DNA of 41,911 nt from Candidatus Chisholmbacteria bacterium (GTDB taxonomy: Bacteria > Patescibacteriota > Microgenomatia > UBA1400 > JACOWY01). This document shows positions 35,121-41,035 of this stretch, in pieces (position 1 is the stretch's first letter; each line of letters begins with the position of its first letter). The translations under genes were made by a program, and so were the position numbers. The stretch is from positions 1 through 41,911 of the forward strand of contig JACOWY010000025.1 of assembly GCA_016176555.1 (NCBI GenBank), read 5' to 3'. The notes beneath the pieces are model-generated. The model saw only the letters and a program-made list of their open reading frames with translations, ran no database searches and was not told where the DNA came from.

Positions 35121-37244
35121 TTAGCCAGAATAACTGCTCAGGAATTCTTCGGCATTTCTGATGAGGACGTCGCGGGGTTTGCTCCCTTCCGGAGGAGAGA
35201 CGACGCCAGCGGCTTCTAACTGATCGAGCACTCGGGCGGCCCGAGCGTAGCCGATGGAGAGCCGGCGCTGCAGGAGAGAGGCTGAGGCACGGTCATATTC
35301 GCAGACGACCCTGACGGCGGGTTCGAAAAATTCGTCGCGCTCGCCATCTTCTCCTTGAGTGCCTCTTCCCTGGCGCTTAGCGGTGTATTGGGTGGTGACT
35401 TCTTCGGTGTATTGGGGTTGGACGCCAGTATCCCTGAGGAAATTGATGAGCTCACGAATTTCTGGCTCGGAGACGAAGGTGCCTTGGATGCGGGACGGTT
35501 TAGCGACGTCGGGAGGGATGTAGAGCATATCGCCGCGGCCGAGGAGCTTTTCGGCACCGGGAGTATCAATGATGACCCGGGAATCAACCATGCTGGTGAC
35601 GTTGAAGGCAATGCGGCAGGGAATGTTGGCTTTGATGAGCCCGGTGATGACATCGACAGAGGGTCTTTGGGTAGAGATGATGAGGTGGATGCCGGTGGCT
35701 CTGGCCATTTGGGCAAGCCTGGTGATGGCGTCTTCGACTTCGGAAGGAGCAAAAAACATAATGTCGGCGAGTTCGTCGATGATGATGACGATAAAGGGCA
35801 TGGCCTGAAAACCAGAAAGCTCGTTGTAGCCTTCGATGTTGCGGACTCCGACTTCGGCAAAGAGTTTGTAGCGCCGATCCATTTCGGCCAGGGCCCATTT
35901 GAGGGCAGAAATGACTTTTTCTGGCTCGACGATGACGGGGGTGAGGAGGTGGGGGATGCCGTTATACTGGGTGAGTTCGACGCGTTTGGGGTCGACGAGG
36001 ATAAATTTAACCTCTTCGGGCGAAGCTCTAAAAAGCATGCTGGCGATAAAGGCGTTGACGCAAACCGATTTACCTGAGCCAGTGGCGCCGGCGATGAGCA
36101 TATGGGGCATGCGAGCCAGGTCAACGACGAGGGGTTCACCCGAGACGTTGAGACCCAGGGAGAGGGCGAGTTTGGATTTATTGTTTTTCATGGCGTCAGA
36201 TTCGAGCATTTTCTTGAGGGCCACAAATTCTGCGGAGCGGTTGGGGGTTTCGATACCGACCAAGTTTCTGCCAGGAATTGGAGCTTCGATGCGAATTTGA
36301 CCGGTGGGAGCAGCCAGAGCTAGGGCGAGGTCGTTTTGGAGCGCGGTGACTTTGGAGAGTTTGGTGCCCAGGGCGATTTTGAGGGCATATTGGGTGACCG
36401 CGGGCCCGAGATTGACTTCGACTACTTGGGCTTTGATGCCAAAAGAATCTAATGTCCCTTCGATGATGGTGGCTGATTCTTTTAAATCACCCCTGTCGGC
36501 TTTACCAGAAACAGAATCTTGGAGCATAGCGATGGGCGGGTACTTCCACACCCTCGGCGCAGCGGGGGCATTGGAGACTATTTGATCGGCCAAGGGCTCA
36601 GTGGTTTTGCCAGGGCTTTTTTGGGGTGAGGGGGTTTCTCCTCGAGCTTTCACATTTTCTAAGGTTCTTTTATCTACTTCTTCGGTCATACCTTTGATGG
36701 TAATGCTGCCAGTTTGAGTGAGGGTAAGTGGTTTGGGATGGCGCATAAGAGAGGAAGCAAACCTTTGCAGCGAGGCGACAATGGAGGCTCCGAATAAGAG
36801 CATCTCGTCGAGGGTGGTTTCGGTGGCAATGACGTAACCGACAAAAAAAATGCCGGCGAGGATGATGGCTGCACCCGGAGTAGTAATGAGGTCAGCAAGT
36901 TCGAGCCAAAACTTTTGGCCGAGGTTACCTGCTTTAGTGAGGCCAACGAGGCCGACAAAACTGACTAAGGAACCAAGAAAGGTGTTGGGGCGGGTTATCT
37001 TCCATTTAAGCTTGGTGAGCATGAGGCCGGCGACGATGAGAAGATACGGGATGAAAATGGCACTCCAGCCAAAATTGAAGGTTATAAGGTCACTCAAGCG
37101 AGCGAAGATAACACCTTGGCGCGAAAAAGAGAGGATGACAAACACGCCAAGGCTGACGAGACCAATGGCAGTCAATGAATGAATGGTATCGGTTTTGAGT
37201 TTGACTTTAAAAGGGGCGCGGCGGCGCCCGCGACGACGAGACAT
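35121..37244 (-). CDS. ftsK: DNA translocase FtsK/SpoIIIE
   Basis: MPHMLIAGATGSGKSVCVNAFIASML; PFIVIIIDELADIMF; C-terminal gamma winged-helix; start at MSRRRGRRR. Confidence 0.97.
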   Translation of the reverse strand: MSRRRGRRRAPFKVKLKTDTIHSLTAIGLVSLGVFVILSFSRQGVIFARLSDLITFNFGWSAIFIPYLLIVAGLMLTKLKWKITRPNTFLGSLVSFVGLVGLTKAGNLGQKFWLELADLITTPGAAIILAGIFFVGYVIATETTLDEMLLFGASIVASLQRFASSLMRHPKPLTLTQTGSITIKGMTEEVDKRTLENVKARGETPSPQKSPGKTTEPLADQIVSNAPAAPRVWKYPPIAMLQDSVSGKADRGDLKESATIIEGTLDSFGIKAQVVEVNLGPAVTQYALKIALGTKLSKVTALQNDLALALAAPTGQIRIEAPIPGRNLVGIETPNRSAEFVALKKMLESDAMKNNKSKLALSLGLNVSGEPLVVDLARMPHMLIAGATGSGKSVCVNAFIASMLFRASPEEVKFILVDPKRVELTQYNGIPHLLTPVIVEPEKVISALKWALAEMDRRYKLFAEVGVRNIEGYNELSGFQAMPFIVIIIDELADIMFFAPSEVEDAITRLAQMARATGIHLIISTQRPSVDVITGLIKANIPCRIAFNVTSMVDSRVIIDTPGAEKLLGRGDMLYIPPDVAKPSRIQGTFVSEPEIRELINFLRDTGVQPQYTEEVTTQYTAKRQGRGTQGEDGERDEFFEPAVRVVCEYDRASASLLQRRLSIGYARAARVLDQLEAAGVVSPPEGSKPRDVLIRNAEEFLSSYSG

Positions 37245-37250
37245 AGACTT

Positions 37251-37328
37251 AGCGTATAGCGTATATCTGAGCCTCACAAGAGTTCGGCCGATGTTTCTCG
37301 CAGGCTCGAAATAGCGTATAGCGTATAG
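37251..37328. repeat. Tandem heptamer AGCGTAT arrays flanking hairpin GAGCCT/AGGCTC
   Basis: agcgtatagcgtat (37251) and agcgtatagcgtatag (37313), stem arms 37269-37274 and 37302-37307. Confidence 0.7.
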
Positions 37329-37623: not shown

Positions 37624-39306
37624 CTATACTTCCATGATGACGGTGAGGATGAGGGGTTGACGCTGGGTTTCTTTATAAAGAAGTTTTTCAAGGCTTCGTT
37701 CAATTTGTTGACGGACTATGGCCCAATCCTCTAGCACTCTGCCGGGTTTGAGGCTGGCTTTGACAGTGGTGGCCATTTTTTTGACTAGATGGCGAGATTG
37801 CTTCATGAAGACAAACCCTCTGGAAATGATTTCGACCGTGCCTTTAATTTTGCCTGTTTGCTGAGAAATGGGGACGACCACGACGACGATGCCGTCTTCT
37901 GCCATGGTCTGGCGATCCCGGAGCACAATAGTACCAACGTCGCCGATGCCGAGGCCATCGACCATGATGTTGCGGAGCGGAATTGTTTCGGCCAGGGTCA
38001 AAGACTCCTGAGTCAAGCGCACGACTTGACCATTTTCAAGTAGGGCGATGTGGTGACGAGGGAAGCCAAGAGACTCAGCCATTTTACGGTACTGGACCAT
38101 GTGCCTGAAGCTGCCACCAATGGGGATTAAGAACTTGGGTCGGGTTAAGGCAATGAGATCCTTTTGTTCATCACGATAAGCATGGCCAGAAACGTGGAGC
38201 TGGTCGTCCACGTCGCTGTAGGCAACGTCGATACCCAGCCTCGAGAGGTCGTCGATGAGGGAGTAAACGGGGGTTTCGTTGCCGGGGATGGGGTCGGCAG
38301 AGAAAACGACTTTGTCGGGGGGTTTGATTTGGATGTCTTTGTGGTCGGAGGCGACGGCGCGGGTCAGCGATGAACCTTCTTGCCCTTGGCTGCCGGCGAT
38401 GATGATGCCCACTTGCCTCGGGGGGAGGTGTTTGATCTGGCGTTTGTTAATGATCATTTTTTGAGGCAATTTGAGGAAGCCCAGATTGACGGCGGTTTTG
38501 ACATTGGACTCGACGCTGCGGCCGACAAAGGCAATGCGGCGGCCATGTTCGGCCATGACATTGACTGCTTGTTGAATGCGGTGGACGTTTGAGGACATGA
38601 TGGTGACGATGAATTTACCTTGAGCGTCTTTGATTTCGCGGCGGAAGGTGTCAGTGAGCATGCTTTCGGAGAGCGAGCGACCTTCTTTTTCACTTCTTAA
38701 GCAATCTGAGAGGAGACAGAGGATGCCTTCGTGACCGAGGCTGGCGATTTTGTCTTTCTCCGTAAGTACCCCATCAACGGGGTGGTCGTCAAATTTGAAA
38801 TCTGAACCGTGATAGATGGTGCCGACTGAGCTTCTAATGGCAAAGTGGCGGCCGTCGGGGACAGAATGGGTAATTTTAATGGGGGTGATGGTAAAAGAAC
38901 CAACACTGAATGGCCTCTCGTCAATTTCGGTGATATTAGCGGGAAGGGAATATTCTTTGAGCCGATCGAGGGCAAAGCCGCGGGTGAGTTTGGAGGCGTA
39001 GATGGGGATATTCCCCAGCTTGGGCAGAACATAAGGCAGGCCGGCGAGGTGGTCGTCATGGCCGTGAGTGAGGAGGAGGCCGGCGATTTTATTTTTTCGA
39101 GCCTCGAGATAGGAAACGTCGGGAACGAGAAGATCTACGCCCAGCATGGTCGAATCGGGAAAACCGATGCCGCAATCGACGATGAGAATTTCATCCCCAA
39201 CTTCATAGGCGTACATATTTTTAGTGACGGTGCCAATGCCGCCTAGGGGAATGAGGCGGATTTGGGATGGACTGGCGAATTGAGGTTTGGGAGAAGTGAC
39301 GGTCAT
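37624..39306 (-). CDS. rnj: Ribonuclease J
   Basis: IRLIPLGGIGTVTKNMYAYE; LLTHGHDDHLAGLPY; AGSQGQEGSSLTRAV; LHVSGHAYRDE. Confidence 0.94.
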   Translation of the reverse strand: MTVTSPKPQFASPSQIRLIPLGGIGTVTKNMYAYEVGDEILIVDCGIGFPDSTMLGVDLLVPDVSYLEARKNKIAGLLLTHGHDDHLAGLPYVLPKLGNIPIYASKLTRGFALDRLKEYSLPANITEIDERPFSVGSFTITPIKITHSVPDGRHFAIRSSVGTIYHGSDFKFDDHPVDGVLTEKDKIASLGHEGILCLLSDCLRSEKEGRSLSESMLTDTFRREIKDAQGKFIVTIMSSNVHRIQQAVNVMAEHGRRIAFVGRSVESNVKTAVNLGFLKLPQKMIINKRQIKHLPPRQVGIIIAGSQGQEGSSLTRAVASDHKDIQIKPPDKVVFSADPIPGNETPVYSLIDDLSRLGIDVAYSDVDDQLHVSGHAYRDEQKDLIALTRPKFLIPIGGSFRHMVQYRKMAESLGFPRHHIALLENGQVVRLTQESLTLAETIPLRNIMVDGLGIGDVGTIVLRDRQTMAEDGIVVVVVPISQQTGKIKGTVEIISRGFVFMKQSRHLVKKMATTVKASLKPGRVLEDWAIVRQQIERSLEKLLYKETQRQPLILTVIMEV

Positions 39307-39310
39307 AACA

Positions 39311-39958
39311 CTAGATCAGGTTTAGTTGCTCGTCCAGTTCTGGCTCAGGTGTTTTTGTGGCAGTAGCTTGAATTGGAGGATGGGTAGCTAGTTTAAGAAA
39401 GTGGGGCAATTTGGCAAAATCGGCTGCAAAATCGGCCATGACTCTCCCCGCCCGCAGGGCGGCGGCGGGATGATACATGGGAACAATGAGGATTTGCCGG
39501 CCTTCCCAACTAACCCAGCGCGGTGACCCATGGATTTGAGAAATGCGGACGAGGGGCCCGAAGAATTTAGCCATGCTAAAGCGGCCGAGGGTGACGATAA
39601 CTTTGGGTTTAATGATGCGGATTTCGGCGTCTAAATATGGTTTGTAGGCAGCGATTTCAGCAGGCTCAGGATCACGATTGTTGGGCGGGCGAACTTTGAG
39701 GATGTTAGAGATGTAGACGTCGGAACGGCGGAGATTGACTGACTCGAGGCAGCGGGAGAGGAGCTTGCCGGCAGGGCCAACAAAAGGACGACGCTCGATA
39801 CTTTCATAATAGCCGGCGGCTTCGCCGATAAACATGATTTCAGCTTCGGGATTGCCTTCTCCGGGCACAGTGTCTGAGGTTTTGCGGGCGAGTGGGAGTT
39901 TGGCGGCGTTCTCCTCAAGTTTTCTTCTGACTTCCAGGAGTTTTTCGGTTTTGTCCAT
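39311..39958 (-). CDS. Family-4-like uracil-DNA glycosylase lacking the Fe-S cysteines
   Basis: VPGEGNPEAEIMFIGEAAGYYESIERRPFVGPAGKLL; ISNILKVRPPNNRDPEPAEIAAYKPYLDAEI; MYHPAAALR. Confidence 0.9.
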   Translation of the reverse strand: MDKTEKLLEVRRKLEENAAKLPLARKTSDTVPGEGNPEAEIMFIGEAAGYYESIERRPFVGPAGKLLSRCLESVNLRRSDVYISNILKVRPPNNRDPEPAEIAAYKPYLDAEIRIIKPKVIVTLGRFSMAKFFGPLVRISQIHGSPRWVSWEGRQILIVPMYHPAAALRAGRVMADFAADFAKLPHFLKLATHPPIQATATKTPEPELDEQLNLI

Positions 39959-39982: not shown

Positions 39983-41035
39983 TCACGCCGGCAAGTACTC
40001 CCGGAGGTTAGAGTCGGTGAGAGTGAGATGGTGGGTTTTACCCTCGACGACTTCCAGAGCAAGTTTGCGGGTGATGCTTTTAATGTTGCGCTGTAGGGTA
40101 CGAATACCGGCGTCGAAACCAAGGGGGCGAACGATTTTAGGCCAGAGAGATTCGTCAAAGGAAAGATTTTCGGAACTAAGGCCAGCTTCTTCAAGAGCCT
40201 GGGGGAGGAGATAGTTTTGGCCGATTTGGATTTTTTCTGCGTCGGAATATGAGGGCATGGAATGGACTTCTAATCTATCCATGACAGCGGTGGCGACTGA
40301 GGTAGTGTTGTTGGCAGTGGCGAGAAACAAAACTTCGGAAAGATCAAAGGGGTAATCGATATAGTGATCGACAAAAGCGGAGTTTTGCTCTGGATCAAGG
40401 AGCTCGACCAGGACCCCCATGATATCGGCCCTCGCAGAATCGCTGACGCGGTCAATTTCATCGAGCAAAATGACGGGGTTTTTGACCTGAACGCGGCGCA
40501 GGGCTTTGATGACGTAACCGGGTTCGGCCTCTAAGTGCAGTCGGCTTTGGCCGCGGAGGTCGCGGGCAGAGCCCATGCCGCCAAAGGGAATGCGGGCGAG
40601 TTTGCGGCCTAAGGCTTGAGCTAAGGAGGCGGCAAAGGTGGTTTTGCCGGTGCCGACGAGGCCGACGAGGCAAATGATGGGGGCACGGGCAGAGTGGGTG
40701 GGATTTTTTTGGGTGGTTAATTTAATGACGGAGATAAATTCGAGCATGCGTTGTTTAATTTCCTCCAGGCCATAGTGGTGGCGATCAAAGACCTCTTTGG
40801 CTTTGGTAAGATCGAGGCTGTCGTCAGAGCGAGAGTTCCACGGCAGGTTGACGATCCAATCGATGTAGTGGGCGGTGCGTTCGTACTCGGTAGTGTAAGT
40901 GCCGCTTTCGCCCAAACGCTCGAGGCGCTCGAGCATGTCGGCAGTTTTTTGTTGGAGCTCTTCGGGAAATATGCCCGCACCGAGTTTGCTTCTTAATTTG
41001 GCGACTTCTTGGGCGACGGCAGTGTTGGCAGGCAT
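39983..41035 (-). CDS. Lon-like AAA+ ATPase without protease domain
   Basis: YIDWIVNLPWNSRSDDSLDLTKAKEVFDRHHYGLEEIKQRMLEF; GLVGTGKTTFAASLAQALGRKLARIPFGGMGSARDLRG; PVILLDEIDRVS; ends LTDSNLREYLPA*. Confidence 0.9.
   Translation of the reverse strand: MPANTAVAQEVAKLRSKLGAGIFPEELQQKTADMLERLERLGESGTYTTEYERTAHYIDWIVNLPWNSRSDDSLDLTKAKEVFDRHHYGLEEIKQRMLEFISVIKLTTQKNPTHSARAPIICLVGLVGTGKTTFAASLAQALGRKLARIPFGGMGSARDLRGQSRLHLEAEPGYVIKALRRVQVKNPVILLDEIDRVSDSARADIMGVLVELLDPEQNSAFVDHYIDYPFDLSEVLFLATANNTTSVATAVMDRLEVHSMPSYSDAEKIQIGQNYLLPQALEEAGLSSENLSFDESLWPKIVRPLGFDAGIRTLQRNIKSITRKLALEVVEGKTHHLTLTDSNLREYLPA

Follow-up and report, generated by a model that had tools for sequence, protein, structure and literature searches.

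The window, a 41,911-nucleotide stretch of DNA from Candidatus Chisholmbacteria bacterium (contig JACOWY010000025.1), carries a gene that most probably (probability ∼0.86) encodes a working uracil-DNA glycosylase (UDG) derived from family 4 and lacking the [4Fe-4S] cluster, a reading that draws on sequence comparison and structural modelling. Loss of the cluster ligands is recurrent in Patescibacteria-type bacteria, where it probably leaves the enzyme unharmed.

Family assignment and cluster ligands

The gene (39311–39958, − strand) starts with ATG, translates to 215 aa and was identified as a clusterless family-4-type UDG from profile scores, alignment, a structural model and fold matches. 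Its product scores 171.8 bits against the NCBIfam family-4 model TIGR00758, above the cut-off of 125.3, and 106 bits against the Pfam UDG model, while remaining below the curated cut-off of the type-4 UDG equivalog NF040953 (184.5 vs 250 bits). The top PDB matches are family-4 enzymes, and the protein resembles T. maritima TM0511 (1l9g/1vk2), T. thermophilus UDGA (1ui0) and the S. tokodaii enzyme (4zbx) in sequence, predicted fold and catalytic residues, but differs from them in having all four [4Fe-4S] cysteines replaced and a motif A of the form GEAAG. Because family 4 is defined by a [4Fe-4S] cluster held by four cysteines, the window UDG is classed from its sequence as a family-4 derivative that lacks the cluster rather than as a canonical member. 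It is the one UDG-superfamily gene found in its genome, which is 80% complete, so that a second could be missing from the assembly. An Rfam search across the window returned no matches.

The preliminary description had proposed that all four cluster cysteines are replaced, and a phmmer alignment to TM0511 (1l9g), free of gaps from residue 4 to past residue 105 and at zero offset, bears this out. Cysteines 18, 21, 89 and 105 of the Thermotoga enzyme, ligands 1 to 4, align with Ala18 (codon 39905–39907, −), Leu21 (39896–39898, −), Val89 (39692–39694, −) and Tyr105 (39644–39646, −). The only cysteine of the protein, C70, lies neither at nor beside any ligand position; together with the gap-free alignment, this rules out misalignment and a shifted cluster, the case of cysteines displaced but present that had been raised at the outset. 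A homologue alignment, suggested earlier as a check for clade-wide loss, found that 21 of 21 members of the window clade lack a complete ligand set. With the close orthologues L093 and L100 sharing the same residues (ALVY) and the 20 other clade members likewise lacking the full set, an isolated mutation, sequencing accident or assembly error is ruled out.

Motifs A and B, described initially as remaining, are both present. The usual motif A is GE(A/G)PG; in the window protein it reads G45-E46-A47-A48-G49 (39812–39826, −), keeping the Glu and both Gly and replacing Pro with Ala, a substitution found in 7 of 110 ligand-losing and 0 of 100 ligand-keeping sequences. Motif B, assigned by sequence comparison, comprises H163-PAAAL-R169 (39452–39472, −). 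Also present are F59, N85 (39704–39706, −), R90-P91-P92, N94-R95 and H163 itself, within YHPAAALR. G45, E46, G49, E52, P58, F59, G64, R95, P97, E101 and H163 are identical throughout the 110 ligand-losing and 100 ligand-keeping sequences, and N85 is kept in 107 and 96 of them, respectively (203/210). By comparison with UdgX, where activation of the nucleophile or water and binding of uracil fall to E52, N91 and H178 (PMC10359453), E46 corresponds to the catalytic Glu (UdgX E52) and N85 to the uracil-contacting Asn (UdgX N91). Clusterless UDGs are under strong purifying selection: close pairs have dN of 0.12–0.22 at dS of 1.8–2.8, the latter near saturation.

The genomic setting is conserved as well. 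Upstream of the UDG gene lies a Lon-type AAA+ ATPase without a protease domain (39983–41035, −), and downstream are ribonuclease J (37624–39306, −), whose start is 4 bases past the UDG stop, and FtsK/SpoIIIE (35121–37277, −), the third gene of the conserved block. Where the sequence stretches reach, the order Lon-type AAA, UDG, RNase J, FtsK is common to genomes whose UDG has four cysteines (CCCC; L006/L136, L113, and L125), three cysteines and a His at ligand 3 (CCHC; L122, L124, and L140) or no complete ligand set (L093/L270, L100/L271, L091, L004, L011, and L274). This shared order identifies the clusterless UDG as an orthologue at the same place and rules out a paralogue. The Lon-type ATPase, 350 aa long with its lid kept, sits beside UDG in many of the class genomes.

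Predicted structure and proposed function

Structure prediction, another check proposed in the preliminary description, yielded a confident AlphaFold model of a family-4 fold (pLDDT 94.8 overall) that includes the former cluster loop, with residues 81–110 at 96–99 per ten-residue block. Among solved structures, family-4 UDGs match it best, with TM0511 reaching a TM-score of 0.89 on target. Ligand loss, retained catalytic residues, recurrence, purifying selection, predicted fold and synteny thus all favour the earlier reading of a clusterless enzyme.

From these sequence and model data, we infer that the protein excises uracil. By the family-4 route, the nucleotide would be flipped out and the uracil stacked on F59, with N85 and H163 holding the base and E46 activating water. 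The cluster normally serves as a structural staple that ties the loop between ligands 3 and 4 to the N-terminal CxxC segment; in the window protein, the small or hydrophobic A18, L21 and V89 and the aromatic Y105 may pack the space instead. In all 93 losses of Cys 4 the replacement is F, Y or W, and ligand position 2 is mostly Leu (71/110 ligand-losing sequences). The regular appearance of an aromatic residue at Cys 4 in separate lineages suggests that an aromatic plug fills the cluster space, making the former site a packed side-chain core.

Published mutants bear on whether such an enzyme could work. Cys-to-Ser mutants of the Pyrococcus and Archaeoglobus family-4 UDGs lost only ∼40% of their activity, according to PMC5295032, which summarizes Kiyonari 2008 and Engstrom 2012; the same site was thus disturbed with activity mostly kept, but these are laboratory proteins with Ser at the ligands, whereas the window protein is natural and has a proposed packed core. 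The same source describes the family-4 cluster as mainly steadying a loop anchored by two of its cysteines. Counting against our reading are the GEAAG form of motif A and the lowering of both activity and thermostability by cluster disruption in a related family-5 enzyme (PMC5295032).

The protein ends in QLNLI (39314–39328, −), which resembles a β-clamp-binding peptide. Terminal motifs of this type (QLxLF-like) occur in 109 of 155 relatives, compared with 2.7 in shuffled tails. An archaeal family-4 UDG binds PCNA, as stated in the title of Kiyonari 2008 (cited in PMC5295032), and by analogy it is plausible that QLNLI binds the clamp; it would probably tether the window UDG to the sliding clamp. 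In part of the order clade, tails end in ALL, ALY or TLF instead.

We weighed two other interpretations of the altered site. One is that the protein binds uracil but is non-enzymatic, decaying or repurposed, perhaps along the lines of UdgX, which is related in fold and motifs; the UdgX model TIGR03914 matches it at 105 bits, and motif A has one altered residue. That score is, however, well under the UdgX cut-off of 189.95, and both hallmarks of UdgX are missing, namely the covalent-His KRRIH loop and the motif-A Gln (GEQPG), whose place A47 takes. Score and motifs rule out UdgX identity, and with all catalytic residues kept under strong purifying selection, any non-enzymatic role is very unlikely. 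Binding of another metal or cluster through non-Cys ligands is more improbable still: ligand 3 is His or Asp in some lineages (DLHY, LSDY) and the CCHC form is common, but A, L, V and Y are no plausible metal ligand set and C70 is outside the site.

Distribution and history of ligand loss

The UDGs that we compared came from three samples. Named genomes supplied 80 relatives; a survey of 53 genomes belonging to the same order yielded UDG-superfamily genes in 44 (some of a more distant type outside family 4); and family-4 genes were collected across the class, with matches in 141 of the 281 genomes sampled. Roizmanbacteria and Woesebacteria are among the nearest relatives that have names. Among 231 aligned sequences, 100 are CCCC or CCHC, 110 are ligand-losing and 21 form a separate CCY-type group. 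All ligand-losing sequences belong to Patescibacteria or the window's class, in a sampling that was seeded by the window protein and does not imply absence elsewhere. Their states at ligands 1 to 4 include DLHY, DLFF, LSDY, FLFC, ALVY and YLVF, with KCYF, ATYW, NCYC and IEVY occurring in Saccharibacteria, Nomurabacteria and Dojkabacteria.

A quick tree, computed without bootstrap after removal of the four ligand columns, places the window protein among 21 sequences of its class that form one clade (SH-aLRT 99) and are all ligand-losing. Two of them, L091 and L092, are YLCF and keep the third Cys, indicating graded loss within the clade. The ligand-losing sequences require at least five changes, three of which are forced by well-supported branches, and the AU test rejects a single ancient loss (p = 0.007), though not, at the 0.05 level, a grouping of just the LSDY and window clades (p = 0.08). 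LSDY sequences adjoin a CCCC sequence (L063) and FLFC/FLYC sequences adjoin a CCHC one, as fits stepwise, separate losses. YLCF, with its remaining third Cys, and DLHY, which shares with CCHC the His at ligand 3, may be leftovers of such steps, judging from the residues at these positions.

The CCHC form was found in 46 sequences (including L118, L003, L122, L019, and L043) from the window's class and from Chloroflexi such as Roseiflexus, and represents a possible 3Cys-1His cluster in a family-4 UDG; for L118, AlphaFold gives a confident model. In a separate group of UDGs from the window's class (L097, L218–L237), the first two cysteines are kept, ligand 3 is Y and ligand 4 mostly G, and ITSPVKYLP stands in place of the family-4 sequence ITNVVKCRPP. 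In families f5 and f12 of the order (e.g. L104–L107, L109, and L110), the genomes tested yield no hit to TIGR00758, and their UDG-superfamily gene is a distant one that may belong to family 1; the type of UDG thus switches within the order.

Iron-sulfur assembly and significance of the loss

Ligand loss could also be passive, occurring in reduced cells that can no longer build Fe-S clusters. SufB/D and cysteine desulfurase were not found in the window genome, although at 80% completeness their absence from the assembly decides nothing; in the separate DL clade, 35 of 39 genomes also lack SufB/D, as do the Saccharibacteria and Nomurabacteria tested among the named genomes. Against this, full SufB/D is present in 19 of the 22 genomes tabulated for the group to which the window belongs, and the window genome encodes two radical-SAM proteins (CxxxCxxC), one of the MiaB family. 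In five genomes (G008, G013, G019, G023, and G033), a clusterless UDG coexists with an endonuclease III-like protein whose four-Cys cluster motif is complete (C-x6-C-x2-C-x5-C). Across the class, SufB/D is present in 37 of 90 clusterless and 17 of 32 retaining genomes with a clear result (Fisher p = 0.30), a comparison that is descriptive because the genomes are related and that covers only one assembly route. Lost Fe-S assembly as the cause thus has no overall support from the SufB/D counts or the endonuclease III pairs, and we regard it as unlikely, though relaxed Fe-S dependence may have helped in the DL clade. MutY-like proteins missing the cluster motif also occur among relatives of the same order (L253, L261, L263, and L266), while L265 keeps it; the genomes of L263 and L266 (G035 and G039) have both a clusterless UDG and SufB/D.

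The literature searched, which excluded most subscription papers, yielded no description of a family-4 UDG that is clusterless by nature. Clusterless MutY offers a parallel, being likewise a natural loss of [4Fe-4S] in a glycosylase family (Trasvina-Arenas 2016, cited in PMC5295032; also mentioned in PMC11078426), but it has an unrelated helix-hairpin-helix fold and, unlike family-4 UDG, holds its cluster elsewhere.

On balance, we consider it reasonably likely that the [4Fe-4S] cluster has been lost several times among Patescibacteria-type family-4 UDGs, with an aromatic residue at the lost fourth ligand, and that neither uracil repair nor any role in DNA charge transport requires it, even in cells that still make a cluster-type endonuclease III. 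A clusterless, probably oxygen-tolerant UDG could serve as a laboratory enzyme. The role of the iron-sulfur cluster in glycosylases is debated, as either a structural staple or a redox sensor acting over DNA. Its repeated natural removal from one glycosylase, in some genomes beside another that keeps it, provides matched natural pairs, and the CCCC, CCHC and partial states could be used to test what the cluster does.
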